Under the pieces are notes generated by a model, which was given only the letters and a program-made list of their open reading frames with translations, was not told where the DNA came from and did no database searches. Below are positions 1-14,066 of a stretch of 30,743 nt of DNA, piece by piece (positions within the stretch are counted from its first letter, which is position 1; every line of letters begins with the position of its first letter). Source of the DNA: a virus. The DNA is taken from positions 1 through 30,743 of IMG/VR virus record IMGVR_UViG_3300021976_000057. One strand, given 5' to 3'. A program made the position numbers and the translations under genes.

Positions 1-228
1 GGGGTAGGAAGGGGTCTAGGAGCGTGCAGGGGGCTGCCGATTTAGGAAGGGGGTATCGGAGGAGGGGTAGGGAAATGGCAGTGGGAGGGGTGGGATTAAT
101 TTTTGTACTCCGAAATAGCAGTACAGTGTAGAGGTCCGACCGGCATTTGCTGCGCGAAACTATGCCTTATCGGGGCAATTCGGGCCATTGCCAAATACGT
201 TCATCGATAGCATGGCCCGAACACAGAC
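1..228. other. Gene-free G-rich end region
   Basis: No credible reading frame lies here. The first 110 bases of the plus strand contain many runs of three to five G, and the unit TAGGAAGGGG occurs at about 5-14 and again at about 43-52. The cluster at about 65-102 has enough G-runs to form a G-quadruplex with one long loop. The segment lies beyond the stop of the last leftward gene, so it is 3' untranslated or spacer sequence. Whether it is near a genome end cannot be told from the window. Confidence 0.6.
179..221 (-). terminator. Hairpin after the last leftward gene
   Basis: TTCGGGCCAT (179-188) and ATGGCCCGAA (212-221) form a perfect 10-bp stem with a 23-nt loop, starting 8 nt past the stop of the last minus-strand gene. 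No U-tract follows on the leftward transcript, which is common for actinobacterial terminators. It is therefore a candidate terminator or mRNA 3'-end stabiliser for the leftward block. Confidence 0.5.
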
Positions 229-378
229 CTAAACGTAAAAGCAGCTGCTGCAGCACAGACAAATTAGGCCAAAAAGTGCGATGAGCCCCAGCAAAAACCA
301 CACGTGCCGGTGGCTTTTTACCTGCCGGTGGTCGGTCAGAGTGTAGCCGTTATGCTTGTAGCGCCGAGGCTTGCTCAC
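229..378 (-). CDS. Small single-pass membrane protein, 49 aa
   Basis: The GTG start at 378-376 overlaps the stop of the upstream gene as GTGA, the translational-coupling arrangement seen throughout this phage. The product has a basic N-terminal half rich in Lys, Arg and His (about residues 1-25). A hydrophobic helix follows at about residues 26-41 (VWFLLGLIALFGLICL), then a Cys/Ser-rich tail (CCSSC) ending in FYV. This is an N-in, single-pass membrane topology, with Cys residues near the membrane face that could be acylated. No family is recognised. It is the last gene of the leftward block and is followed at once by a hairpin. Confidence 0.72.
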   Translation of the reverse strand: MSKPRRYKHNGYTLTDHRQVKSHRHVWFLLGLIALFGLICLCCSSCFYV

Positions 379-575
379 TCGGGTAGCAGCTTCACTGAGA
401 CCAGGTAGTTCTTGCCATTGATCTCATTGCGGATACGGAAAAGTGCCTGGTCATCGACGGTATAGGCTCCGGTGATCGGGTGCATCGGGGCCAGAAGGCT
501 AGGCGCTACCTCGATGGCACTAGCGATTGTCTGTGCTGTCCGGAGGGTGTTCAGGTACTCGGGAACCTCAGGCAT
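375..575 (-). CDS. Hypothetical protein, 66 aa
   Basis: No family is recognised. The ATG at 575 is preceded by AAGGAGGTG, a near-perfect Shine-Dalgarno sequence and one of the strongest in the block. The product is soluble and of mixed alpha/beta character. The C-terminal half (ALFRIRNEINGKNYLVSVKL) looks like two beta strands. It overlaps the upstream gene by 8 nt and is coupled to the downstream membrane-protein gene by GTGA. Confidence 0.75.
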   Translation of the reverse strand: MPEVPEYLNTLRTAQTIASAIEVAPSLLAPMHPITGAYTVDDQALFRIRNEINGKNYLVSVKLLPE

Positions 576-795
576 CGGGCACCTCCTTCATCTCAAACCC
601 TGTGACCTTGGTGCCGCCCTCGCAGGAGGGGATGATCTCAACCTCGCAGTGCGCGATCAGATCACAGAGGTTGAGGAGTTCATCTGCGGGAACCCGCAGA
701 GCAGTTGATTGGTACTTGTTGTGGCTGTAGGCAACCTCCCACCCGTCGTCATTGGGCATCTTCTTGATGGTCCAGGGTCCAGAGGTAGTTGCCAT
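568..795 (-). CDS. Hypothetical protein, 75 aa
   Basis: A small acidic soluble protein with no recognised family. Its start shares one base with the stop of the preceding gene (TGATG), so reinitiation is likely; the only SD-like sequence, GGAAAGGAG, lies rather far upstream. An early segment (WTIKKMPNDDGWEVAYSHN) looks like a beta hairpin and is followed by an ADELLNLCDLI helix. Two Cys residues occur but form no zinc pattern. Confidence 0.72.
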   Translation of the reverse strand: MATTSGPWTIKKMPNDDGWEVAYSHNKYQSTALRVPADELLNLCDLIAHCEVEIIPSCEGGTKVTGFEMKEVPDA

Positions 796-968
796 CAGAC
801 GCCAAGGCTCCTTTCCCAGCCGCCCCGCATGTACTCGGAGTAAGTTTGCTCGCCGTAGTTCCTCAGCACCCAGACCTTGAATGCCTCGTAGTCTGCCTCG
901 GTGGGCTCTTGGTCCCAGTTGTCGGGGTCGCGCTGCTGGATGGCTTGGAACTGTACGATATTGGCCAT
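795..968 (-). CDS. Hypothetical protein, 57 aa
   Basis: A longer in-frame extension upstream reads into the neighbouring gene. The ATG at 968 is chosen because it overlaps the upstream stop as TAATG and has GGAAAGG about 10 nt before it. The product is acidic and probably helical (TEADYEAFKVWVLRNYGEQ), with aromatic residues throughout. No family is recognised. Confidence 0.68.
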   Translation of the reverse strand: MANIVQFQAIQQRDPDNWDQEPTEADYEAFKVWVLRNYGEQTYSEYMRGGWERSLGV

Positions 969-1456
969 TAGTAGAGCACCTTTCCGAAGAGTGCGATCTG
1001 CACGACGGTCATGGCGCAACCAAAGTCCAGGTATCCGGCATCGTTCCACAGGTCTCCCTGGGCGATCAGGTCCTTGGTCTCCTTCTCGATCCACAGATCC
1101 TGGTGGGTGCCGTACCGGATCATCGTGAGCCCGGACTCCAGGACCTTGTGCGTAAGCTGGTACTCGTCTTCATGCGAGTTGAACTTCACCGTTGCCTGGA
1201 TGGGGCTCTCCGCCGTGTGGTAGTGCAGCAGTCGCATCCAGGGAGCGGAGTCACCGGACTCGACCGCAGTGGTGATGATGTCATCCAGGAACTCGTTGCG
1301 AGGTGTCGAGCCCTCTGTGATCAGCGCCTCCTTGATGGACAGGTAGGTCTCCTGCCGGGTCCGGGAGACCAAGCCGAACAGGATGCGCTCGATATCCCGC
1401 ATCTGGGTCTCATCGGCATTGAGGTAGAGCCGTAGCTGGGTGATTGTCTTTTCCAT
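968..1456 (-). CDS. Hypothetical protein, 162 aa
   Basis: The start at 1456 is supported by GCAGGAGGC about 6 nt upstream. The product is predominantly helical, with an N-terminal segment (LNADETQMRDIERILFGLV) and a second helix around LDDIITTAVESGD. A mixed alpha/beta middle follows, then a C-terminus ending in a hydrophobic strand (MTVVQIALFGKVLY). It has no cysteine clusters and no enzymatic motif I can identify. It is the third largest protein in the leftward block. Confidence 0.75.
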   Translation of the reverse strand: MEKTITQLRLYLNADETQMRDIERILFGLVSRTRQETYLSIKEALITEGSTPRNEFLDDIITTAVESGDSAPWMRLLHYHTAESPIQATVKFNSHEDEYQLTHKVLESGLTMIRYGTHQDLWIEKETKDLIAQGDLWNDAGYLDFGCAMTVVQIALFGKVLY

Positions 1457-1468
1457 TGTTGCCTCCTG

Positions 1469-1639
1469 CTAGTAGTTCGGGTTCTTGCGGCCTACCCGTA
1501 GCCAATATGCTTCGTAGATGTGCTTGTACTCGGGGCGAACGATGCAGCCAAATGCTAGGCCGCCTCGCATGGAGGTCAGGTGCCGCTGGTAGCGGAGCCA
1601 CTGTAGGCGCCGCACATTGCGCGTTTTGTGTCGACTCAT
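1469..1639 (-). CDS. Small basic protein, 56 aa
   Basis: ATG at 1639, with AAGGAG 5 nt upstream overlapping the stop of the preceding gene (TAAGGAGACGCAATG); it ends with TAG at 1469-1471. The product is strongly basic, with an Arg/His/Lys-rich first half (MSRHKTRNVRRLQWLRYQRH) and a Tyr-rich second half. The composition fits a nucleic-acid-binding or ribosome-associated peptide, but that is only inference. It sits tightly between two leftward genes. Confidence 0.7.
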   Translation of the reverse strand: MSRHKTRNVRRLQWLRYQRHLTSMRGGLAFGCIVRPEYKHIYEAYWLRVGRKNPNY

Positions 1640-1648
1640 TGCGTCTCC

Positions 1649-1945
1649 TTACTTGTGGCTGGCGCGGTGCCGAGCGATGTGGCGCAGGGCACGCTCACGT
1701 GTTGTGTACCCTGAGCCTCGCGTCTCTTGGCGACCGGTGCCGGGGATAGGCGGGCAGTCGGCGCATAGGATGCGCCATTCCTCCGGTACGTCGGGGGTAG
1801 AGACTACCCACAGGGTCGCAACGGGCTTCTGTTCGGATGCAGGGACGTTGGGCAGGGGGTAGACAAGGTACGTCTTGAGATACTTAGTGCGGAGGGAGCG
1901 CTCCAGGAGGAACGCCCCCACCACCGCTGTCGGGTTCGCAGGCAC
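1649..1945 (-). CDS. Hypothetical protein, 98 aa
   Basis: GTG start at 1945 directly after the TAA of the upstream gene (TAAGTG). No other start codon is available and the SD is weak, so translation probably depends on coupling. The N-terminal half contains beta-strand-like segments (KYLKTYLVYPL, VATLWVVSTP). The C-terminal part has CADCPP, which could be half of a zinc site, and ends in an Arg/His-rich tail (ERALRHIARHRASHK). Family unknown. Confidence 0.65.
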   Translation of the reverse strand: MPANPTAVVGAFLLERSLRTKYLKTYLVYPLPNVPASEQKPVATLWVVSTPDVPEEWRILCADCPPIPGTGRQETRGSGYTTRERALRHIARHRASHK

Positions 1946-3055
1946 TTAGCCGACCGAGATCAGCTTGGCGAGCCGGATTGTCTTCGTGGTCTTGGTGCCT
2001 CGGAAGGTCAGCTGGCGCTCGCCCTTGACCACCTTCAGGACCGGGTTGGACTTCACCACATCGGCCTCCTCCTTGCCGCTGATTGTGTTCTCCCACTTGA
2101 CAGTCTTGCCCAGCACCGCCAGCAGGACCTCGGTGTCATCCGCCTTGGAGGGGTCGAACGGCAGCATCTCTCGCTTCTGCTCGACGGTCTTGATTGTGCG
2201 CGGCTTGGAGACTCGCGTGGCGACCTTGCCGAACTCGGCCTTGATCTGCTCCGGTGCGACCCGACCCCGCTGCTTGATAGCCGATGCGTTCCGCACTGCG
2301 ACGATCCGTCCCTTGTAGGCGTGAGTGATCTTGCCTTCGCCACCGAAGCAGGCACCGTTCCACCAGGAGATCGACATCACCTCCTGGTCGGCTCCCTTAC
2401 CTCGGGTGAGTAACAGCTCGACCTTGCCGGCCTCCACGTCCTGCTCGTAGGTCGCCTTCCAGGGGTGCTCGACGGCAGCCAGGTCCTTCGCCAGAGCCTT
2501 GGCCTTCAGCATCGACTTCTCGATGCCCGGTAGGGACTTGTAGATGGGGGTCTTGTTGGGCACCTTGTCCGGTGCCTTGGCCTTGATCTCCGGGATTGTC
2601 TTGACCTTGCGAGCCTCGGTCAGGGTCCGGTTCGATCCCGGGCAGCGAGTGTCGCTGTCCTTGAACTTGTGGAAGGACATCTTGCCTTCGCGCAGCGTCA
2701 CTGTGTGCTTGTAGCCGGGAACGTTGATCGGGCATCCCACGCTGGCATTCTCACGCTGCTCGCAGGCCAGTAGCGTCTCCGGGTTCATGTGCTTGGCGAC
2801 GCGGGTGCCGGACTTGAGCTTCGTGTGGATGAGGCCGCACTCGATGCAGTGCGCCTTCCCCTCCGGGGTGCCCTCTGGGGTCTGTGCGTGCTTGGGGGTT
2901 CCGCCGGTGCAACGCTCGGTGCTGTCGGCGAATACTGAGTGCCGCTTGAAGGTCTTGCCGGACGGCATCAGCTCCAGCGGAGCCGGCTTGTCGTCGGTTG
3001 TGCGGGCACAGCTGGTACACTGGTACGCGGTCGGTTCGGGCATGTCCGTTCTCAC
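1946..3055 (-). CDS. Zinc-finger-rich phage protein, 369 aa
   Basis: The largest leftward gene. The GTG at 3055 gives 369 aa; an in-frame ATG at 3043 gives 365 aa, and neither has a strong SD. Numbered from that ATG, the first 140 residues hold three repeats of one Cys/His module. These are C9-x2-C12, H35, C45; then C66-x2-C69, H85, C94; then a degenerate third with C104, H125 and C134 that lacks the second Cys of the pair. A Lys-rich helical linker follows (about 145-200). The C-terminal domain (about 205-365) is beta-rich, contains SWWNGACFGGEG, and ends in a basic tail. The modules look like tandem zinc-binding units, suggesting nucleic-acid or protein binding, but I recognise no characterised family. 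Confidence 0.8.
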   Translation of the reverse strand: MRTDMPEPTAYQCTSCARTTDDKPAPLELMPSGKTFKRHSVFADSTERCTGGTPKHAQTPEGTPEGKAHCIECGLIHTKLKSGTRVAKHMNPETLLACEQRENASVGCPINVPGYKHTVTLREGKMSFHKFKDSDTRCPGSNRTLTEARKVKTIPEIKAKAPDKVPNKTPIYKSLPGIEKSMLKAKALAKDLAAVEHPWKATYEQDVEAGKVELLLTRGKGADQEVMSISWWNGACFGGEGKITHAYKGRIVAVRNASAIKQRGRVAPEQIKAEFGKVATRVSKPRTIKTVEQKREMLPFDPSKADDTEVLLAVLGKTVKWENTISGKEEADVVKSNPVLKVVKGERQLTFRGTKTTKTIRLAKLISVG

Positions 3056-3112
3056 TTTCTGGTCGGTCGGTCGGTTAGGTCAAGTGTACTCTGTGGAGCA
3101 GCCGATGGCTAC

Positions 3113-3145
3113 AGTTGCCGGTCGATCGTACCCTACCTGGCAACT
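3113..3145 (-). terminator. Stem-loop at the end of the 59-aa gene
   Basis: AGTTGCC (3113-3119) pairs with GGCAACT (3139-3145), a 7-bp stem whose loop contains the stop codon of the 59-aa gene. No U-run follows. It may attenuate transcription or mark an mRNA end before the zinc-finger gene. Confidence 0.3.
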
Positions 3146-3312
3146 ACCCAGGTGGTCGTGGTGTCGATGAGGAAACCTCGCGGGTAGATGCGGTCTGTGA
3201 GGCTGGTGACCTTGAGGGTCACTCGGCGGGTATCGGCGCTGGAGCCGATCACCACGGCCTTGACCTTGCGGCCGTACAGGCCGGTGTAGGTTACTTTGGT
3301 CTTGAGTGGCAT
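3133..3312 (-). CDS. Small beta-rich basic protein, 59 aa
   Basis: ATG at 3312 with TAAGGAG 6 nt upstream; the stop is at 3133-3135. The sequence alternates basic and hydrophobic residues typical of a small beta barrel (MPLKTKVTYTGLYGRKVKAV, then RRVTLKVTSL and GFLIDTTTTWVVAR). The next gene upstream (3321-3701) encodes a similar all-beta protein, so the two may be a functional pair. Family unknown; an SH3-like or OB-like fold is a guess. Confidence 0.7.
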   Translation of the reverse strand: MPLKTKVTYTGLYGRKVKAVVIGSSADTRRVTLKVTSLTDRIYPRGFLIDTTTTWVVAR

Positions 3313-3320
3313 TGCTCTCC

Positions 3321-3701
3321 TTAGACGGTGAGGCGAGAGATGTTGGCGGGGTGGAACCGACGGACCTTCTTGCTGCGGTCCATCCGGACGTGGATGTACT
3401 TGGTGCCGACCTGGATGACGGTGCCGTACCTGTCACCGCTCATCCAGGCGTCGGTTGCGGGGTGTGCAACGACCCGGGTGCCCTTGAAGAGGTCGTGCGC
3501 GGGCCAAGCTATGACAGAGCCCTGGCTGTGCCGGACGGTGAAGATCTCGCCGGCCTTGCTGGTGCTCAGAGCCTTGACCCGGTAGACCCAGCCAAACGGA
3601 TCGTCCACCTTGGTGGTCAGGATCTCGCCCCTGAAGTCGAGCTGGCCATCCCAGGCCAGCACCGCGACGATTGCCGGGGGGTGCAGGATCTTGCGTCCCA
3701 T
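3321..3701 (-). CDS. Small beta-barrel-like protein, 126 aa
   Basis: The ATG at 3701 is chosen over a longer extension because it carries the exact repeated start element GAGAAGGGACCGCAATG. The product reads as successive beta strands: AIVAVLAWDGQLDFRGEILT, WVYRVKAL, EIFTVRH, TRVVAHPA, RYGTVIQVGTKYIHVRMD, KVRRFHPANISRL. The phrase GTVIQVGTKYIHVRMDRSKKVRRF resembles KOW/SH3-type barrels that handle nucleic acid. That is a fold impression only. No catalytic motif is seen. Confidence 0.75.
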   Translation of the reverse strand: MGRKILHPPAIVAVLAWDGQLDFRGEILTTKVDDPFGWVYRVKALSTSKAGEIFTVRHSQGSVIAWPAHDLFKGTRVVAHPATDAWMSGDRYGTVIQVGTKYIHVRMDRSKKVRRFHPANISRLTV

Positions 3702-3762
3702 TGCGGTCCCTTCTCGATTGAGGCCGGTCGCCTCTGCCGGGCGCCCGTGCTGGACGGGCACC
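3699..3762 (-). promoter_or_regulatory. Repeated leader: start element plus two hairpins
   Basis: In the leftward direction: a distal hairpin (arms 3740-3748 and 3754-3762, 5-nt loop), a proximal hairpin GAGGC/GCCTC (3720-3724 and 3730-3734), then GAGAAGGGACCGCAATG (3699-3715) ending in the start codon. The distal arms are identical to those of the leader at 4059-4088. The 17-nt start element recurs exactly at 5217-5233 and 5501-5517. Confidence 0.7.
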
Positions 3763-3772
3763 CTACAGATGC

Positions 3773-4015
3773 TCACCAGACGAAGGTGGCGTCCACCCGT
3801 ACCTCGGTGGGGATCTGTCCGGAGTGCCCCTCCACCGCCAGGTCCTCCTTGCGGAAGTACAGGGAGTGCCCGTCGCCATCCGCGTACCGGACGGCGCCCT
3901 TGGTGACCTTGTTCTGCTTCAGAACGTAGGTCTTGTCGGGCTGCGGGGTGGGCTCGGCGGCAGCGGTGTCGGTGGCGGGGGTCTTGCGCTGCGCAGGGGT
4001 GCGGTTCGTGGTCAT
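3773..4015 (-). CDS. Hypothetical protein, 80 aa
   Basis: ATG at 4015 with GGAGGACCG just upstream; the frame continues further upstream only through the hairpin region, so that extension is rejected. The first 30 residues are Thr/Pro/Ala-rich and probably disordered (TPAQRKTPATDTAAAEPTPQ). The rest (about 30-80) is a compact beta-rich domain with TYVLKQNKVTKGAVRYADG and a C-terminal VRVDATFVW strand. Small phage proteins of this shape are often DNA mimics or head/replication accessory factors, but no family is recognised here. Confidence 0.72.
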   Translation of the reverse strand: MTTNRTPAQRKTPATDTAAAEPTPQPDKTYVLKQNKVTKGAVRYADGDGHSLYFRKEDLAVEGHSGQIPTEVRVDATFVW

Positions 4016-4088
4016 GGTCGGTCCTCCATCGTTTTGGATTGGAGCAATCGCTCCGATTGGCGCCCGTACCCGGGGAGGGACGGGCACC
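4013..4088 (-). promoter_or_regulatory. Repeated leader, variant start element with two hairpins
   Basis: Distal hairpin with arms GGCGCCCGT (4059-4067) and ACGGGCACC (4080-4088): 9 bp including one wobble, with a 12-nt loop. The proximal hairpin is GGAGC/GCTCC (4041-4045 and 4050-4054). Then comes the variant start element GGAGGACCGACCATG (4013-4027). The architecture matches the leader at 3699-3762, but the start element is nearer to a canonical SD. Confidence 0.6.
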
Positions 4089-4102
4089 GCTCGCAGGGAT
4101 CC

Positions 4103-4303
4103 TCAGCGCACGCTGTCGAGCAGGTACTTGCGGAACTGCGGGTCGGACAGGCCGGGCACCGGGAGGTCAGCAAAGAATGAGTCGATCATCCTCAGCGCCT
4201 GTTCCGGTCCGGAGCCCATCGACACCAGCCCCTCGAACCAGACCCGGAGGACCAGCTCTACCTCCGAGAATTGTATCTCGTTGTCTGAAATGCGTTCCAT
4301 CAT
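4103..4303 (-). CDS. Hypothetical helical protein, 66 aa
   Basis: ATG at 4303 overlaps the stop of the upstream gene (ATGATGG), with GAGGAG 3-4 nt upstream; ATG at 4300 is an alternative start one codon later. The sequence is mainly helical and acidic (EIQFSEVELVLRVWFEGLVS, EQALRMIDSFFADL). Family unknown. Its C-terminus is followed by the hairpin leader of the next gene. Confidence 0.72.
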   Translation of the reverse strand: MMERISDNEIQFSEVELVLRVWFEGLVSMGSGPEQALRMIDSFFADLPVPGLSDPQFRKYLLDSVR

Positions 4304-4554
4304 TTCTCCTCTTCTTCTCGATTGACCCTTGCGGTCGGTGGGGTGGGCATCACTTGGTACGGCAGGATCTCCCAGGCGGTACCGTCGCTCAGGAGAATGC
4401 CTACGGTGTCTTCGCCATCGTCGTAGTCCACCTCGGTGATGAGCAGGTCGACATCACCGATTGGGATGCCCGCCCCTGACTCCTTGAAGCCTTCAAGGGC
4501 GACCATCATCTGCAGAGCGATGGCCTCTGCGATCTCGGCTGCCTCTTGTCTCAT
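4300..4554 (-). CDS. Hypothetical protein, 84 aa
   Basis: The ATG at 4554 is chosen because it overlaps the upstream stop as ATGA; a start ten codons earlier is possible but would lengthen the overlap. An N-terminal helix (RQEAAEIAEAIALQMMVALEGFK) is followed by beta strands (DVDLLITEVDYDDGEDTVGI, GTAWEILPYQV) and a charged tail of REEEEK. The tail codons GAGGAG also serve as the SD of the next gene. Family unknown. Confidence 0.72.
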   Translation of the reverse strand: MRQEAAEIAEAIALQMMVALEGFKESGAGIPIGDVDLLITEVDYDDGEDTVGILLSDGTAWEILPYQVMPTPPTARVNREEEEK

Positions 4555-4787
4555 GCCATCTCCAATCCGTGGTCGAGGCCGCACTGCCCGTGCGCAACTA
4601 CCGTGTGGAGCACTTTGCCGTGGACCTCGATGCTGTTGACGGGATGAGGAAGTGTGAATTCGCCCATCTCGTCATCGGCATCCTCGCCGCAGATCTGGCA
4701 GATTGCGATGCTGCCATCTGCATATTCCAGAAGGGCATAGATTGGGTTGGGCATCCGTGGCTGTGACTCATCGAACCGGCGGGTCAT
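4551..4787 (-). CDS. Putative zinc-binding small protein, 78 aa
   Basis: ATG at 4787 with GGAGGGGG about 4 nt upstream. Beta strands (PIYALLEYADGSIAICQICGED) carry a CQIC pair. A downstream HxH-type segment (LHTVVAHGQCGLDH) supplies further His and Cys, so a single zinc site is plausible. It is coupled by ATGA overlaps on both sides. Function unknown. Confidence 0.72.
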   Translation of the reverse strand: MTRRFDESQPRMPNPIYALLEYADGSIAICQICGEDADDEMGEFTLPHPVNSIEVHGKVLHTVVAHGQCGLDHGLEMA

Positions 4788-4969
4788 TGCCCCCTCCTGC
4801 TGAGCTGGTAGCTTGCGTACGTGCTGAACGGGTAGTCACAGAGGTCGTGGTCGTGCGTGACCTGATCGGAGATCAGCCCCTTGAAACGATCGTATGTATC
4901 CTCACGCAGATCGAAATCCGGGATGGCCTCGTGCACGCCGTCGTAGTCAAGGTCGTCGTCTGGCTCCAT
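4784..4969 (-). CDS. Hypothetical acidic protein, 61 aa
   Basis: The ATG at 4969 shares a base with the stop of the membrane-protein gene upstream (TGATG). A longer frame upstream is an antisense or alternate-frame extension and is not used. The first 25 residues are very acidic (EPDDDLDYDGVHEAIPDFDL). The C-terminal half is Tyr- and His-containing (YPFSTYASYQLSRRG). The ATGA overlap with the next gene supports co-translation. Family unknown. Confidence 0.68.
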   Translation of the reverse strand: MEPDDDLDYDGVHEAIPDFDLREDTYDRFKGLISDQVTHDHDLCDYPFSTYASYQLSRRGQ

Positions 4970-5106
4970 CAGACACACGTCACTTCCGGTCGGATGGCGA
5001 GCGAGAGCATGACGCTCAGGGTGATGGCGACTGCCATGAAGCCAATGACCAGCAGGCCGATCAGCGCCATGCGTCCGGGGGAGGTGCTGTGCTGCTGGTT
5101 GCTCAT
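4969..5106 (-). CDS. Small single-pass membrane protein, 45 aa
   Basis: ATG at 5106 overlaps the preceding stop as ATGA, with AGGGGGC upstream. Residues about 13-37 form one transmembrane helix (MALIGLLVIGFMAVAITLSV and onward) after a polar Ser/Gln/His-rich N-terminus. There is no signal-peptidase motif. It is one of three tiny membrane proteins in the leftward block (the others are at 229-378 and 6885-7013). Such proteins can act in superinfection exclusion or lysis timing, but nothing in the sequence decides this. Confidence 0.72.
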   Translation of the reverse strand: MSNQQHSTSPGRMALIGLLVIGFMAVAITLSVMLSLAIRPEVTCV

Positions 5107-5219
5107 TTGCTCTGCCCCCTGTCCTGCCGGTGCCGGCGGTTGATGCACCCGGCCTTGACCGTGGCCTTGCGGCGGGCATCCTTGCGGTCGTAGTACCGCG
5201 TGATGCGGTCCTCGTCCAT
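5103..5219 (-). CDS. Very small basic protein, 38 aa
   Basis: The ATG at 5219 carries an exact copy of the start element GAGAAGGGACCGCAATG, and the stop overlaps the next gene as ATGA. This is strong evidence that a 38-residue frame is really translated. About a third of the residues are Lys, Arg or His (DRITRYYDRKDARRKAT, INRRHRQDRG), with one Cys. Possibly a nucleic-acid-binding peptide; no family is recognised. Confidence 0.68.
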   Translation of the reverse strand: MDEDRITRYYDRKDARRKATVKAGCINRRHRQDRGQSK

Positions 5220-5278
5220 TGCGGTCCCTTCTCTTGGGAGGCCAATTCCTCCTGTGCCGCCCCACCGGAGTGGGACGG
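5217..5278 (-). promoter_or_regulatory. Repeated leader: start element plus two hairpins
   Basis: Distal hairpin with arms 5257-5265 and 5270-5278 (nine positions with one C/A mismatch, loop CGGA). Proximal hairpin GGAGG/CCTCC (5237-5241 and 5248-5252). Then GAGAAGGGACCGCAATG (5217-5233). Same order of parts as at 3699-3762, with unrelated stem sequences. Confidence 0.68.
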
Positions 5279-5299
5279 GTCAGCAGGCATCGGCTCCAG

Positions 5300-5503
5300 C
5301 TACTTGACCTTGACGACCTTGCCGTCCTTCATCGTCACCTGGGCGTACCAGGTGTGCGGTTCGGGGTAGTGCGGCCCTTCCAGGTACTCGATGCCGTCCG
5401 TTGCCGGGGTGCCGAGGGCCGGTGCGTAGATGGTGACCTCTTTGCCGGCGGCAACAGCTTCCCTGAGGGCCTTCTTGGTCCTGAAGTTCTCCCTAGCGTA
5501 CAT
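5300..5503 (-). CDS. Hypothetical protein, 67 aa
   Basis: The ATG at 5503 is selected because it ends an exact copy of GAGAAGGGACCGCAATG; the upstream extension runs through the leader. A basic N-terminal helix (MYARENFRTKKALREAVAAG) is followed by beta strands (EVTIYAPALGTP, TWYAQVTMKDGKVVKVK). This helix-plus-sheet layout with a Gly-rich turn is common in small phage regulators. No family is assigned. Confidence 0.73.
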   Translation of the reverse strand: MYARENFRTKKALREAVAAGKEVTIYAPALGTPATDGIEYLEGPHYPEPHTWYAQVTMKDGKVVKVK

Positions 5504-5585
5504 TGCGGTCCCTTCTCTAAGCCGAATGTTCCTCACCAACCCACACGCATACCTGAGAGGCTTGTGGGCCGGGACCATCATTCGG
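5501..5585 (-). promoter_or_regulatory. Repeated leader: start element with inverted repeats
   Basis: The exact start element GAGAAGGGACCGCAATG occupies 5501-5517. Upstream in the leftward direction, CCGAATG (5522-5528) pairs with CATTCGG (5579-5585), enclosing CCCACA/TGTGGG (5540-5545 and 5563-5568). The stems are weaker than in the other leaders. Confidence 0.55.
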
Positions 5586-5586
5586 A

Positions 5587-6099
5587 TCAGGCTTGCTTGC
5601 CAGGACTTGGGCAGTCATTGCCAGCGTAGTGCTCCTTCATGGCAGCGAAGGTCGGTAGGTGCTTGCCGCAGGTGCAGGCGCCGGGTCCTGCCCACTCGTC
5701 CTTGTGCGGGCACCATCCCATGTTCGGGGTGCTGACGTCCGGGATGATGTAGTGCTGCCAGAACAGCGCCTCTGTCGAGATGTCGGCGCCGCAGGTGTGG
5801 CACTCGGGATTGATGTGCCGCTTCAGGCCCTCGTAGTCTCGGCGGGTGCGCTCAGGGAGCATGTCCCAGTGCGTACGCTGGGGGTGCTCCCTGGCCCACT
5901 TCCTCATCCACTGTCTGGCGTCGTAGCTGACCATATGGGCCAGGTACTGTAGGCGCCGGGCATCGAGGTACCGCATCTCTGGTTCCATCTGGAAGACGCT
6001 GATGTGATTCAGCAGCTCCTCCAGAAACGGCAGTTCGGGTGGGTCTGGGCTCGGTACCTCGGACTCATGGGGTCCGGAGGTAGGCGTGACCTCGTGCAT
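5587..6099 (-). CDS. Putative zinc-finger protein, 170 aa
   Basis: ATG at 6099 follows the variant start element GAGAAAGGGACCGTTATG. The N-terminus (1-25) is Pro/Ser/Glu-rich and probably flexible. Residues about 25-98 are helical (DARRLQYLAHMVSYDARQWM and neighbours). Two Cys/His groups follow: C100-x2-C103 with C130 and H132, and then C142-x-C144, H157, C163, the latter resembling a C2HC finger. The arrangement suggests two zinc sites used for nucleic-acid or protein contact. No enzymatic signature is seen. Confidence 0.76.
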   Translation of the reverse strand: MHEVTPTSGPHESEVPSPDPPELPFLEELLNHISVFQMEPEMRYLDARRLQYLAHMVSYDARQWMRKWAREHPQRTHWDMLPERTRRDYEGLKRHINPECHTCGADISTEALFWQHYIIPDVSTPNMGWCPHKDEWAGPGACTCGKHLPTFAAMKEHYAGNDCPSPGKQA

Positions 6100-6163
6100 A
6101 ACGGTCCCTTTCTCGACGGAGCTGATTGCTCCCCTACCCGGGCGCCCCGTACGCCCGGAGTAG
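6097..6163 (-). promoter_or_regulatory. Repeated leader: start element plus two hairpins
   Basis: Distal hairpin CTACCCGGGCG / CGCCCGGAGTAG (6134-6144 and 6152-6163, one bulge). Proximal hairpin GGAGC/GCTCC (6118-6122 and 6128-6132), resembling the proximal hairpin at 4041-4054. Start element variant at 6097-6114. Confidence 0.65.
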
Positions 6164-6170
6164 GCAGCCT

Positions 6171-6488
6171 TCAGTCGGTCAGGAGGGGATCGCCCTGCTC
6201 TGAGATGATGACCCCGTCATTGGGGGTAGAGTCCTCGTATCGGGCGTTGATGGCCATCCATTCCTCTGCGGTCGCGGTCGCGGTGCCACCGCTGGACCAC
6301 TTGCTCCAGGCCCTTCTGCCATCGTCGGTCAAGACGTCGTCATAGAAACTCTGGAGCAGTTCGTCTTCAGGATCTTCTATCCCCATTGCCTTGCACATCT
6401 TCTGTACGATCCGCCAATTCTCCTCCAGGTTCAGGTAGAACTGGAAGTCGGCGAACAGAAGATCATCTTCAGCCGGTGTCAGCGGCAT
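6171..6488 (-). CDS. Hypothetical acidic protein, 105 aa
   Basis: ATG at 6488 preceded by GGAAGGGAACGC, a degenerate start element that overlaps the stop of the gene upstream. The product is acidic and largely helical (PAEDDLLFADFQFYLNLEEN, PEDELLQSFYDDVLTDDGRR). It has several Trp residues and a Ser/Gly/Thr linker near residue 66-72. Family unknown. Confidence 0.75.
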   Translation of the reverse strand: MPLTPAEDDLLFADFQFYLNLEENWRIVQKMCKAMGIEDPEDELLQSFYDDVLTDDGRRAWSKWSSGGTATATAEEWMAINARYEDSTPNDGVIISEQGDPLLTD

Positions 6489-6500
6489 TGCGTTCCCTTC

Positions 6501-6818
6501 CTAGCGTCGGGCGTACTCGACCTTGAGGCAGTTGAGCATCGTCTCCCCAGCCTGGATCAGGTCTTCCAGGGCATCCCTGGAGTGCTGGGCCGCGTGATCC
6601 GCGTACCAGTTCATCAGGTACGTCGCGTCCATGGGGCGCTGGGTCCGGATGATCTCCGGAAATTCTGGGTCGGCCATTGCGCTCGCCAGCTCGGTGGCTG
6701 ACTCTCGGACGGCTTCCAGTTCCTGCTCCAGGGAGGGGAGCCCGTGGGTCCGGACTCCCTCTGCATAGGCGTCCATCCGCTCAATCAGCTCGATGAACTC
6801 TCGGTCGATGCCGGCCAT
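6501..6818 (-). CDS. Hypothetical helical protein, 105 aa
   Basis: ATG at 6818, preceded by GAGAAAGGGATCTCC, a variant of the repeated start element. The protein is almost entirely helical and acidic, with heptad-like stretches (FIELIERMDAYAEGV, LEQELEAVRESATELASAM, ALEDLIQAGETMLNCL), and may form a small helical bundle. It has the same length as its downstream neighbour but no obvious sequence similarity to it. Family unknown. Confidence 0.75.
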   Translation of the reverse strand: MAGIDREFIELIERMDAYAEGVRTHGLPSLEQELEAVRESATELASAMADPEFPEIIRTQRPMDATYLMNWYADHAAQHSRDALEDLIQAGETMLNCLKVEYARR

Positions 6819-6864
6819 GGAGATCCCTTTCTCTATCGCAACCGAGGTACCGGTATCCGGTACC
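6816..6864 (-). promoter_or_regulatory. Repeated leader: variant start element plus hairpin
   Basis: GGTACCGG (6846-6853) and CCGGTACC (6857-6864) form an 8-bp stem with a 3-nt loop. The start element variant lies at 6816-6833. There is no separate proximal hairpin here. Confidence 0.55.
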
Positions 6865-6884
6865 CGGGTAGGCGCTAGAGCAGG

Positions 6885-7013
6885 TTACCAGGTCACAAGA
6901 TCGTCCATGACGTAGGCGCCAAGGATGATCCAGAGTAGGAATATCATCCCGTAGAGCTGGAGCAGTGCCGGGTAGCTAATGGACTTCAGGAACGACTTCT
7001 TGATCCGCTTCAT
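6885..7013 (-). CDS. Small single-pass membrane protein, 42 aa
   Basis: ATG at 7013 with GGAGGGG 4 nt upstream; stop TAA at 6885-6887. A basic N-terminus (MKRIKKSFLKS) precedes one hydrophobic helix at about residues 14-36 (YPALLQLYGMIFLLWIILGA, then YVM) and a short acidic tail (DDLVTW). The positive-inside rule puts the N-terminus in the cytoplasm. It follows a 600-nt gene-free stretch and a 14-bp hairpin. Role unknown. Confidence 0.7.
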   Translation of the reverse strand: MKRIKKSFLKSISYPALLQLYGMIFLLWIILGAYVMDDLVTW

Positions 7014-7045
7014 TTCCCCTCCGATTCTTTAACGATTGCGACCGT

Positions 7046-7085
7046 ACCGGGTCGCGCGTTACCCGAAGGCGACGCGCGACCCGGT
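7046..7085 (-). repeat. Perfect 14-bp inverted repeat
   Basis: ACCGGGTCGCGCGT (7046-7059) and its exact reverse complement (7072-7085) are separated by 12 nt. It is the strongest perfect hairpin in the leftward block and sits 33 nt upstream of the start codon of the 42-aa membrane protein. That is the position taken by the distal hairpin in the repeated leaders. Confidence 0.7.
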
Positions 7086-7546
7086 CAAGATCGTTTCGTT
7101 CAACGCGATTAGCGTAACGCGTGCTAAGCGTTATCGCGTATCGCGACGCAAAGCGCTTTCCTTTGGTCCCCTTGGGTAGGCTCGGGCAGGACTCACCTGC
7201 TGCTCCTCATCAGTACGGAGCTGGGCCGGATACCGGGTTCCATCGGGCTACTTCGCTAGGAGATAGCTGGGGATCTTGGGTTTCAGGGCGCGGGTGAGAG
7301 GGTGGTCCCTCCCGTGGGCACCGCGCTGGATCCGTTCACCTTTTGATGCCATGCTAAGCCATAGGGTGGTAGGCGCATCCTCGACCAGTGTCGGTCGTCC
7401 TTCCCTCCTGAGGGAGGTACCCCACCCTAGGGGTGGGTATCGGAGCGTTGCGCCCGCAATCGAGCCGAGCCTTGCCGGTCCTGACGGACCGTTCTGAGCA
7501 AAGTCCTTCCTTGTAGGGCAGAGGATCTTCTGATTCCTCCGAGGCA

Positions 7547-7610
7547 GGTACCCCTAGGGGTACCCACTTCGCAGGCTCCAGATCCCCGGGGTACCCCCGA
7601 GGGGTACCCC
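7547..7610. repeat. GGTACCCC palindrome cluster
   Basis: GGTACCCC-TA-GGGGTACC (7547-7564) is a perfect 18-nt palindrome. Two copies of GGGGTACCCC follow at 7588-7597 and 7601-7610. They lie just past the stop of the Cys-motif gene, so they may form terminator-like hairpins. Confidence 0.6.
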
Positions 7611-7620
7611 GTACGCCGTC

Positions 7621-8013
7621 CTAGTCGCAGTAGCAGCCTCCAACGATCCCTTTCTGCTTCCCGCAAAGCTTCCATTCGCAGATGACGATCTTTTCCGTCA
7701 TCGCCGCTACGAAGGTATCCGCGTTACGGTCGTCGGCGTAGCAAAAGCATCCTCCGACGAGCGACTTCATCGCGCCGCAATCCTCGCATTTCGGATTGCG
7801 CTTCTTCGAGTAGCCCCTAGTGAGGGACTCCTCCGCAATACGGTCTAGTACGTGGCTCGGCGGGGGCGGTACCCTCCCGAAGTCCTTACCGGGTAGGTCC
7901 AACGTACGCCGTAGCCGGGCGCCGGGGGTAGCTAGACTGCCCGCCGTAGGCGCCCCCTCCTTAAGGAAGGGCTTCCTAGCCGGAAGTCGATTACTCCCCT
8001 TAGGACGGAGCAT
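7621..8013 (-). CDS. Twin Cys-motif protein, 130 aa
   Basis: First gene of the leftward block. ATG at 8013 ends GGGGACCGCAATG, sharing 12 nt with the repeated start element. The N-terminal 70 residues are basic and Pro/Gly-rich, probably disordered. The C-terminal part holds two copies of one motif: CEDCGAMKSLVGGCFC and CEWKLCGKQKGIVGGCYC. Each is a Cys pair, a G-basic spacer, then GGCxC, giving four Cys per unit, enough for one metal each. The protein ends one residue after the last Cys. I recognise no named family. Zinc binding is likely, and a nucleic-acid or regulatory role would fit its promoter-proximal place. Confidence 0.72.
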   Translation of the reverse strand: MLRPKGSNRLPARKPFLKEGAPTAGSLATPGARLRRTLDLPGKDFGRVPPPPSHVLDRIAEESLTRGYSKKRNPKCEDCGAMKSLVGGCFCYADDRNADTFVAAMTEKIVICEWKLCGKQKGIVGGCYCD

Positions 8014-8240
8014 TGCGGTCCCCTAACTCTCAGCCTACCCGTACCTAGGCTAGGTACGGACTGGCCGAGCCCTAGGGCGCTGCCCGTCCTCAGAAGGGGT
8101 TCCCGGAAGCTAGCCCTTACGGGCGCGTTCCTCCAATGGAGGCTTTCGCCGTCCAGCTCTCGCGAGCCGTACCGCTTCCCCTTCTCGCGTCCCTCGCGCG
8201 TCCCGCTCGCGCGACCCCTCCGACCCCCTCCCTCGCCCTA
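8011..8240 (-). promoter_or_regulatory. Structured leader RNA of the leftward block
   Basis: About 230 nt lie between the predicted start of leftward transcription and the first ATG. In RNA sense it holds TCGCGCG/CGCGCGA (8194-8200, 8208-8214). A long-range stem AGAAGGGG with CCCCUUCU (8178-8185 with 8092-8099) comes next, extendable by GGAAGC/GCUUCC (8174-8179, 8105-8110). Inside it are GCUC-GCGA-GAGC (8156-8167), GGC-GAAA-GCC (8141-8150), CCUCC/GGAGG (8130-8142) and GCCC-GUAA-GGGC (8113-8124). It ends with a 9-bp hairpin (8039-8059) before the start element (8011-8023). Three of the loops are GNRA tetraloops. No riboswitch class is recognised. Confidence 0.5.
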
Positions 8241-8247
8241 CGTTCTT

Positions 8248-8276
8248 CTTATAAAGGGAACTCTACGCGGGTTCAA
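8248..8276 (-). promoter_or_regulatory. Leftward promoter of the early/accessory block
   Basis: On the minus strand, TTGAAC (8276-8271) is separated by exactly 17 nt from TATAAG (8253-8248), close to a housekeeping sigma consensus (TTGACA-17-TATAAT). Transcription would start near 8241. An imperfect inverted repeat, AAGGGAAC (8254-8261) with GTTCCCCTT (8286-8294), brackets the spacer and -35, a plausible operator. Confidence 0.65.
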
Positions 8277-8291
8277 GATCTTTAGGTTCCC

Positions 8292-8335
8292 CTTTTCGGG
8301 TAGGATCGCATCGGCTTTTCGGTTGGGATGGCATC
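8292..8335. repeat. 21-bp imperfect direct repeat, 23-bp period
   Basis: The 21-mers at 8292-8312 and 8315-8335 match at 18 of 21 positions; both begin CTTTTCGG and end GCATC. They lie upstream of the -35 of the leftward promoter. The 23-bp period equals that of the second repeat pair at 8377-8415, suggesting protein-binding sites about two helical turns apart. Confidence 0.6.
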
Positions 8336-8376
8336 ATACGAATGGCCCTCGTCCGTTTGGCCCCGGTGTGGCGGCT

Positions 8377-8415
8377 GAATGGCTGATGCCCCATCAACCG
8401 AATGGCTGATGCCCC
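8377..8415. repeat. 16-bp exact direct repeat, 23-bp period
   Basis: GAATGGCTGATGCCCC occurs at 8377-8392 and 8400-8415, offset by 23 bp, in the divergent intergenic region between the leftward promoter and the terminase gene. A candidate pair of regulator sites. Confidence 0.65.
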
Positions 8416-8513
8416 TTTCAAGATCGACTTCTGGTGCGGGACTGACCCCGCTCCGATCCCGCACATTTCCCCCCATTCACTCAATCGATGCCCCTCTATC
8501 TTTCCCTTGCCCC

Positions 8514-8519
8514 TATACT
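8514..8519 (+). promoter_or_regulatory. Probable -10 box of the rightward operon
   Basis: TATACT lies 5 nt before the terminase ATG at 8525, so transcription would begin at or within a base or two of the start codon, giving a leaderless mRNA. No Shine-Dalgarno precedes that ATG. No good -35 is visible at the usual distance, so an activator or alternative sigma factor may be needed. Confidence 0.45.
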
Positions 8520-8524
8520 TAAGC

Positions 8525-9199
8525 ATGGCCTATGACAAGAACAAAAACACCGCTGACATGTCAGAGCAAGAGCTGAATGAAATTGTCAACCCTCCCCTCT
8601 CAGACCGTCCCATCATCCCGCTCGACCTCACCACCACCACAGAGGGACTAGAACGAAAGATCGCCAGGACCCGCCAGAATGCTCGTATGTGGGAACTCCG
8701 CGTGGAGGGCTACTCCATCGAGCAGATTGCGGACATCTTCACCATGACCCCCAACCAGGTCAAAGCCCGCCTGCGAAAGGCCGCTGAAGCCTTCCAGGTC
8801 GAGGCCGCTGAAGACCTGATCAAGATGGAGCTGGATCGGCTGGACATGCTGCTAAGGGAAGCCATCAACATCCTGAACTCCACACACATTGCGCAGTCCC
8901 ACGGCCGGGTGCTCCTCGACCCAAGCACCAACCTCCCTATGACCGACCACGAGCCCGTCATGAAAGCAATGGACCGGGTTCTGAAGATCATGGATCGTAG
9001 AAGCAAATACCTCGGTCTGGACGCCCCCTCCAAGTCCGAGCAGAGCATCAACGTCTTCCAGACCACCCAGGCCGATCTGGAGCTGCAAGAAATGATCCGC
9101 GAGGCAAACGCACGGACCAACACAATCACTCCGCAAACCATCGACAATCTGTTCACTGCAAACGACAACGACAGCAAAGAAGGCACCCAACAACAATGA
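8525..9199 (+). CDS. Terminase small subunit, 224 aa
   Basis: It recognises packaging-site DNA and hands the genome to the large terminase for headful or cos-type packaging. Residues about 56-86 form a helix-turn-helix (WELRVEGYSIEQIADIFTMT, then PNQVKARLRKA). It is followed by a helical oligomerisation region (about 87-165, LIKMELDRLDMLLREAINIL) and a C-terminal segment that would contact the large subunit. The ATG at 8525 is favoured because TATACT sits just upstream and no SD is present at any candidate start. A frame beginning at 8402 would start inside the direct repeats and is rejected. The large subunit follows one tiny gene later. Confidence 0.82.
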   Translation: MAYDKNKNTADMSEQELNEIVNPPLSDRPIIPLDLTTTTEGLERKIARTRQNARMWELRVEGYSIEQIADIFTMTPNQVKARLRKAAEAFQVEAAEDLIKMELDRLDMLLREAINILNSTHIAQSHGRVLLDPSTNLPMTDHEPVMKAMDRVLKIMDRRSKYLGLDAPSKSEQSINVFQTTQADLELQEMIREANARTNTITPQTIDNLFTANDNDSKEGTQQQ

Positions 9200-14033: not shown

Positions 14034-14066
14034 CACACGGCAACCACACGGCAACCACACGGCAAT
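14034..14066 (+). repeat. Three tandem 11-bp repeats
   Basis: CACACGGCAAC at 14034-14044 and 14045-14055, with CACACGGCAAT at 14056-14066, directly after the scaffold stop. A second array, CACCCAG at 14097-14103 and 14104-14110 with CACCCAA at 14111-14117, lies 30 nt on. Together they flank a hairpin at the edge of the methyltransferase/glycosyltransferase cassette. Confidence 0.75.

Follow-up and report, generated by a model that had tools for sequence, protein, structure and literature searches.

A repeated start-associated sequence behind predicted two-state RNA leaders in the early operon of a metagenomic phage and a related contig

Repeated sequences placed just before start codons are known from the Cluster K mycobacteriophages, whose start-associated sequence (SAS) is a short asymmetric repeat a few nucleotides (nt) from the start codon that overlaps the Shine-Dalgarno sequence and is conserved beyond its pairing with 16S rRNA. 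Cluster K SAS copies lie only in the non-structural arm, in one orientation, in long intergenic gaps and before unrelated genes. Half of them carry an upstream inverted-repeat part, the extended SAS (ESAS), a 17-bp inverted repeat of conserved sequence with a SigA-like promoter; its authors saw little evidence that it forms RNA hairpins. The function of the SAS has been an open question since 2011. Phage T7 early mRNA, in turn, carries RNase III processing sites within its operon. The subject here is a repeated start element of a 30,743-base IMG/VR virus record (IMGVR_UViG_3300021976_000057, the whole of which is called the window). An earlier note on this DNA had likened the element to the Cluster K system while giving it a different sequence, and the likeness extends to the SAS properties just listed, but not to the conserved repeat and promoter of the ESAS. 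The element precedes many early genes, and about half of these starts lie behind a repeated RNA structure predicted by folding.

The structural arm of the window runs rightward from about position 8402 (terminase, portal, capsid, tape measure, tail), and the leftward arm (1-8300) consists of small genes, mostly without assigned function, that make up an early, non-structural operon. The portal protein is 23-34% identical to portals of Streptomyces and Microbacterium phages, and an actinobacterial host is therefore likely. No DNA-level relative of window positions 1-24000 was found among phage records; a related phage contig, L004, encodes a terminase 61% identical to that of the window. Prediction of sigma-70-type promoters over positions 1-8800 returned 0 sites, and we infer that the leftward genes carrying leaders are co-transcribed. 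The leaders are mostly missing where gene junctions overlap or are very short, indicating that they split the operon into blocks.

At the start codons, the 17-mer GAGAAGGGACCGCAATG is present in three exact copies, all on the minus strand as the earlier note had it, and allowing up to 3 mismatches yields 6 matches where 0.10 would be expected; of the three that are inexact, two are the starts at 6488 and 8013. Among the variants that had been proposed at five other starts, those at 6099, 6488, 6818 and 8013 are real, but that at 4015 is a weak match. The pattern GAGAA[AG]?GGGA is present in six places on the minus strand of positions 1-8300, all but one of them at starts, and a scan of the whole window found it neither on the opposite strand nor in 8300-30743. 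The start sequence contains an 8-nt Shine-Dalgarno, AGAAGGGA, followed by CC and a short spacer; AGAAGGGA is predicted to pair at -9.8 kcal/mol, with one G-U pair, to the actinobacterial 16S rRNA 3' end, UCUUUCCU. Since the CGCAATG half is also present at leaderless starts of the window phage, the specific part is GAGAAGGGACC, which L004 carries at three starts (6704, 6066 and 3938), with GAGGAGGGACC at 4895. A search for 10-mers repeated upstream of starts found the start sequence in both the window and L004; the same search also picks up the SAS published for AnnaSerena, TM4 and Pixie. It could be argued that the element is merely a strong Shine-Dalgarno in a habitual CGCAATG context, and that the hairpins are unrelated intergenic stems, as the 16S 3' end pairs with the whole of AGAAGGGA and GCAATG occurs at the leaderless starts 4787, 3311 and 1639. 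The ACC that follows the Shine-Dalgarno is nevertheless kept in L004 (in all three close copies) despite being unpaired with 16S rRNA, and the statistics of the upstream structure given below (scan, covariance model and covariation) also speak against this explanation, which appears very improbable. A 365-amino-acid gene shows the start context GAGAAGGGACC-ATG in L004 and GAGAACGGAC-ATG in the window; upstream of it, L004 (3938-4010, minus strand) has a promoter-like TACAAT, and the window stretch (3043-3110, minus strand) is similar.

Folding places one architecture, referred to here as the rod, in ten leaders (window 3701, 4015, 5219, 6099 and ~7508; L004 4592, 4895, 6066, 6704 and 6994). 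The rod begins at the upstream stop codon or shortly past it. At its base is an outer stem, 3-5 bp long in all but one leader, where it reaches 9 bp. A small internal loop separates this stem from CCU/AGG or GCU/AGC, next to which lies a GxG mismatch; beyond the mismatch come three further pairs, an internal loop of 1x1 or 2x2 and an apical stem of mostly 7-10 bp. The earlier note had described two separate hairpins of unrelated sequence before most copies, a proximal one of 5 bp and a distal GC-rich one. The proximal hairpin is found at 3701, 4015, 5219 and 6099 but not at 5503, 6488, 6818 and 8013, and the distal hairpin is found at all of these starts except 6488. The two are, however, not independent: in the predicted folds of the ten leaders, the distal hairpin is the tip of the longer imperfect stem, whose conserved residues both phages share, and the proximal hairpin forms in a competing fold. 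The picture of two independent hairpins was thus dropped once folding revealed their common arm. A rod copy at 7530-7581 had been overlooked in the earlier note. A strict rod scan that ignores sequence, applied to the leftward strand, found three rods in the window region, where shuffled sequence would give 0.35, and five in the L004 region, where it would give 0.08. All three of the former and four of the latter, seven in all, are leaders with GxG. Similarly, a covariance model built from 3 rods recovers four other leaders (E = 1.4e-9, 2.3e-8, 0.0067 and 0.018), and shuffling either flank of the apical hairpin abolishes the basal pairing (combined p ~1e-8, for copies that are not fully independent).

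The GGAG[GC] segment is both the 3' base of the rod and the 5' arm of the proximal hairpin, and the two folds are therefore mutually exclusive. Both pairings appear to be under selection. Within a leader, the two arms of the outer, 3-bp and apical helices pair with each other 97-100% of the time, versus 51-58% when arms are swapped between leaders (p = 0.0002); for the proximal helix the values are 97% and 84% (p = 0.006). Three forms of the shared segment occur, and the partners on both sides co-vary with it (CCT/GGAGG/CCTCC, GCT/GGAGC/GCTCC and GCCT/GAGGC/GCCTC), with a mismatch in the upstream partner at 4015 and 3701. When four leader pairs are compared between the window and L004, 63 of 93 base pairs are unchanged, 17 show two-sided changes, 7 one-sided changes, and 6 gain or lose pairing; without 6099/L6704, the least certain of the four alignments, the two-sided changes number 9. 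The hairpins thus do show the compensatory changes on which the idea of a shared element had been made to depend beforehand. Recent gene duplication does not account for the 17-mer either, as the hairpins differ among copies with the exact 17-mer. That the element is conserved independently of the genes also stands, the downstream genes being unrelated. The leader of 5219 and that of L004 6704 share GCCTGCTGACC...GCACAGGAGGAAT before non-orthologous genes, and the L004 counterpart of the 3701 leader (4629-4670) precedes an extra gene. Equivalent leaders before non-orthologous genes indicate that the leaders are modules of the intergenic position and not of the protein.

The sense (leftward) strand folds more stably than the antisense strand in 15 of 15 leaders (p = 6.5e-4), which argues for a function in RNA rather than DNA; this comparison is preferred to the count of G-U versus A-C pairs (15:0), which is biased by the choice of arms. 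A DNA-level operator or promoter similar to the Cluster K ESAS would be expected at the very position that the rods occupy, upstream of a start-associated sequence as in Clusters K and EF. Given the lack of predicted promoters, the arm sequences that vary while pairing is kept, and the consistently greater stability of the sense strand, this explanation is disfavoured and has next to no likelihood.

Predicted energies at 37 °C give mainly the rod in 7 of the ten leaders, the proximal hairpin in 1, and about equal amounts in 2. The main rival to the reading preferred here is a translation-coupled switch, in which a ribosome terminating on the upstream gene would cover the 5' base of the rod, whereupon GGAG[GC] would pair with [CG]CTCC and the downstream start would be freed; with the upstream gene untranslated, the rod would leave CUC free to mask the GAG of the start sequence. 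Such a switch is consistent with two mutually exclusive pairings that co-vary, with an upstream stop codon that about half of the ten leaders have in or at most 5 nt from the 5' arm, and with a mean predicted Shine-Dalgarno accessibility that rises from 0.49 to 0.61 in the proximal state. This gain is small, however, and clear in only about 6 leaders, the CUC:GAG pairing is of 3 bp only, and the remaining leaders have the stop at least 13 nt upstream of the arm, making the switch possible but unlikely. A separate suggestion, that the rods keep the Shine-Dalgarno open, was not supported by a comparison with shuffled leaders.

The reading preferred here, held tentatively and with somewhat less than even confidence, is that the leaders are putative RNase III-like processing sites at which the early operon would be split into units, with one arm of the cut rod set free to refold ahead of the strong Shine-Dalgarno. 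It builds on a modular leader of three parts, namely the rod, the GGAG[GC] segment and the start sequence, on the covariation of both pairings and on the absence of predicted promoters. A host RNase III, or a similar nuclease specific for double strands, would cut the rod, after which the apical stem would cap the upstream mRNA at its 3' end, and the freed GGAG[GC] arm could refold with [CG]CTCC into the proximal hairpin at the new 5' end. There it may protect that end beside a standard strong ribosome-binding site, so that the operon would be divided into units, each separately stable and uniformly translated. Processing of this kind would account for both conserved pairings. Like RNase III sites, the rods are irregular intergenic stems of about two helical turns (~18-29 bp including mismatches, lying between one gene's stop codon and the following start). 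In Streptomyces coelicolor, a symmetric 4/4 internal loop is where RNase III cleaves the intergenic hairpin of rpsO-pnp (PMC10126417), and works cited in PMC3997798 describe 5' stem-loops that stabilise mRNA. The same GC-rich stems, standing right after stop codons as stems frequently do in actinophage intergenic regions, could instead be leaky terminators or attenuators that separate gene blocks, the proximal hairpin then being the alternative fold. The stems lack a T run on their 3' side, though, and the competing pairing releases only the base while the strong apical stem stays, and a terminator role is accordingly rated as decidedly improbable.

Several points weigh against processing by way of a two-state rod. 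The arms were partly hand-picked from predicted folds, the rod is known from two related genomes only, and the leaders are partly related by descent. Two rods break the GxG rule, 3701 having C-G and L004 6066 having G-U at this position. The leaders of 5503, 6818, 7013 and 8013 are long stems of other designs, and 6488 has no stem. Furthermore, the rod is predicted to be dominant at 37 °C in most leaders.

The earlier note had also raised the possibility that one factor co-regulates the genes. Nothing points to a particular factor, and a small KOW-like protein encoded in the operon itself, by the gene at 3321-3701 (minus strand), which lies behind a rod, is no more than a candidate. This protein has a predicted fold that is mostly beta and that weakly matches KOW domains in structure. 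It belongs to phrog_5546, and its relatives are found in Patience, DalanDe and many Cluster K phages; across 14 phage sequences of this protein type, the motif HPATDAWMxGDRYG is nearly invariant. The leaders could thus be operators at which an RNA-binding protein, such as this product or a host factor, would co-regulate the genes by binding the proximal hairpin or the GxG base of the rod. The residues around the GxG mismatch are conserved, the protein is structurally closest to the KOW domains of Spt5/DSIF, and its relatives are found in the SAS-bearing Cluster K phages, one of them annotated as 'RNA binding protein'. Nevertheless, the structure matches are weak (best E 2.6e-3, TM ~0.37), and Patience and DalanDe have the protein but show no repeated start sequence by eye in the sampled leaders. 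An operator of this kind is thus improbable, and the KOW-like protein is a lead only.

The start sequences, rods and competing hairpins are listed in Table 1 together with the leaders of other design.

Table 1. Start-associated sequences and leader structures in the window, and repeated-start loci in other metagenomic phages
Feature	Position	Strand	Context
Exact 17-mer GAGAAGGGACCGCAATG	3699..3715	(-)	Start codon of gene 3321-3701
Exact 17-mer GAGAAGGGACCGCAATG	5217..5233	(-)	Start of 38-amino-acid open reading frame at 5219
Exact 17-mer GAGAAGGGACCGCAATG	5501..5517	(-)	Gene 5300-5503
Variant GAGAAAGGGACCGTTATG	6097..6114	(-)	Gene 5587-6099
Variant GAGAAAGGGATCTCCATG	6816..6833	(-)	Gene 6501-6818
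Variant AGGAAGGGAACGCAATG	6486..6502	(-)	Gene 6171-6488; without leader, overlaps upstream stop codon
Variant GTTAGGGGACCGCAATG	8011..8027	(-)	Gene 7621-8013
Weak variant GGAGGACCGACCATG	4013..4027	(-)	Gene 3773-4015; L004 ortholog reads GAGGAGGGACCTGTAATG
Rod	3725..3778	(-)	Upstream of 3701; same leader as L004 4629-4670
Rod	4046..4101	(-)	Upstream of 4015; orthologous to L004 4947-4985
Rod CCGA-TG-CCT-G-CTG-AC-apical 9 bp-CA-CAG-G-AGG-AA-TTGG	5242..5293	(-)	Upstream of 5219
Rod	6122..6174	(-)	Upstream of 6099; outer stem contains upstream stop codon; model match E=1.4e-9
Rod, then AAGGAAGGACTTTG	7530..7581	(-)	Upstream of ~7508; model match E=2.3e-8; homologous to L004 7025-7072 leader
Proximal hairpin GAGGC/GCCTC	3720..3734	(-)	Competes with rod of 3701
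Proximal hairpin GGAGC/GCTCC	4041..4054	(-)	Competes with rod of 4015
Proximal hairpin GGAGG/CCTCC	5237..5252	(-)	Competes with rod of 5219
Proximal hairpin GGAGC/GCTCC	6118..6132	(-)	Competes with rod of 6099
Proximal hairpin GAGG/CCTC	7521..7540	(-)	Competes with rod of ~7508
Long imperfect stem, large symmetric internal loop, not rod type	5522..5585	(-)	Upstream of 5503
Long imperfect stem pairing with part of its own start-associated sequence	6826..6884	(-)	Upstream of 6818
Long imperfect stem	7031..7100	(-)	Upstream of 7013
Long imperfect stem	8021..8077	(-)	Upstream of 8013; weak model match 8023-8075, E=0.7
Repeated-start loci	L071 6906, 7609, 9334; L069 5278, 6226, 6809; L063 7946, 9061, 9561		Other metagenomic phages

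The leftward transcript opens with a long, strongly structured untranslated region in both the window (8028-8262, minus strand, z -2.5) and L004 (7430-8040, minus strand, z -4.9); the two regions have little sequence in common, and that of the window has no Rfam match. In the divergent intergenic region, a 49-nt block (CGATCTTGAAAGGGGCATCAGCC..TTCGGTTGAT; window 8379-8427, L004 8144-8192) is 88% identical between the phages and contains inverted CATCAGCC/GGTTGATG repeats, and is possibly an operator or origin-type site. The rightward gene at 8402-9199 carries the PHROG label 'RNase E' (phrog_645), but it weakly matches a sigma-region-4-like helix-turn-helix and directly precedes the large terminase, both of which point to a small terminase subunit. 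Further into the structural arm, a perfect 11-bp tandem repeat, CACACGGCAAC, is present in 2.9 copies at 14034-14065, between the scaffold gene and the next gene.

Searches for further relatives returned L004 alone. No further exact copy of the 17-mer was found in IMG/VR, where GAGAAGGGACCNNNATG gave 47 single-copy matches, most of them chance-like, with L004 as the sole relative. The rod pattern in IMG/VR and a hairpin-plus-start pattern in GTDB genomes likewise gave only L004 and chance matches, and exact-pattern and BLAST searches of IMG/VR, GTDB genomes and phage records found no rod outside the window and L004. The portal protein and the 365-amino-acid protein as search hooks yielded no new relative, and a candidate contig, L010, proved unrelated. 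The covariance model (R1), run over 43 other loci, found nothing beyond those preselected by pattern, and an Rfam scan of the window gave no family above the gathering threshold and three sub-threshold matches at chance level. Other metagenomic phages have repeated start sequences of their own (GAAAGGCAATCCCGAC, GGAAGGCAAA and ACAGAGAGGA), several with strong hairpins just upstream, and SAS-like designs seem to be more widespread than reported.

Compared with the described systems, the window element functionally resembles the SAS and ESAS of Clusters K and EF but is a member of neither family. The Cluster K consensus is GGGATAGGAGCCC, as opposed to GAGAAGGGACC here, and GAGAAGGGACCGC agrees with it by eye at 8 of 13 positions, where membership would allow at most 2 deviations. 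The closest start sequence, GGGAAAGGACCCC, is that of the Cluster EF Microbacterium phages (AnnaSerena; PMC7302621), which has the same Shine-Dalgarno register and is also followed by ACC; it is alike by eye at 10 of 13 positions, where at most 1 mismatch would be allowed. The upstream parts differ further. In place of the conserved ESAS repeat and promoter of Cluster K, the arms here vary while their pairing is kept and no promoter is predicted, and the evidence for hairpins is strong where in Cluster K it is little. The EF ESAS is centred on GTAGAG, and its leaders have promoter-like sequence and no rod. The rods are closer in form to RNase III sites such as that of S. coelicolor rpsO-pnp, which share long irregular intergenic stems, internal loops, variable sequence and a position just upstream of a ribosome-binding site (PMC10126417). 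The window and L004 thus join the start-site design of the SAS to a switch-like RNA leader instead of a promoter repeat. To our knowledge, a GxG rod with a competing proximal hairpin is absent from descriptions of RNase III sites. The leaders may, as a proposal held with slightly less confidence than processing itself, constitute a class of cis-acting phage RNA not described before, a modular leader in many copies that adopts one of two states, the GxG rod or the proximal hairpin. It would move between genes together with a fixed start sequence and control each gene block as a switch or as a gate for processing; SAS-type systems would then have arisen repeatedly with different upstream control layers. 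The covariation is strong, the start part can be tested apart from the upstream one, and the rod, the refolding hairpin and the strong ribosome-binding site form a compact natural module usable in reporters.

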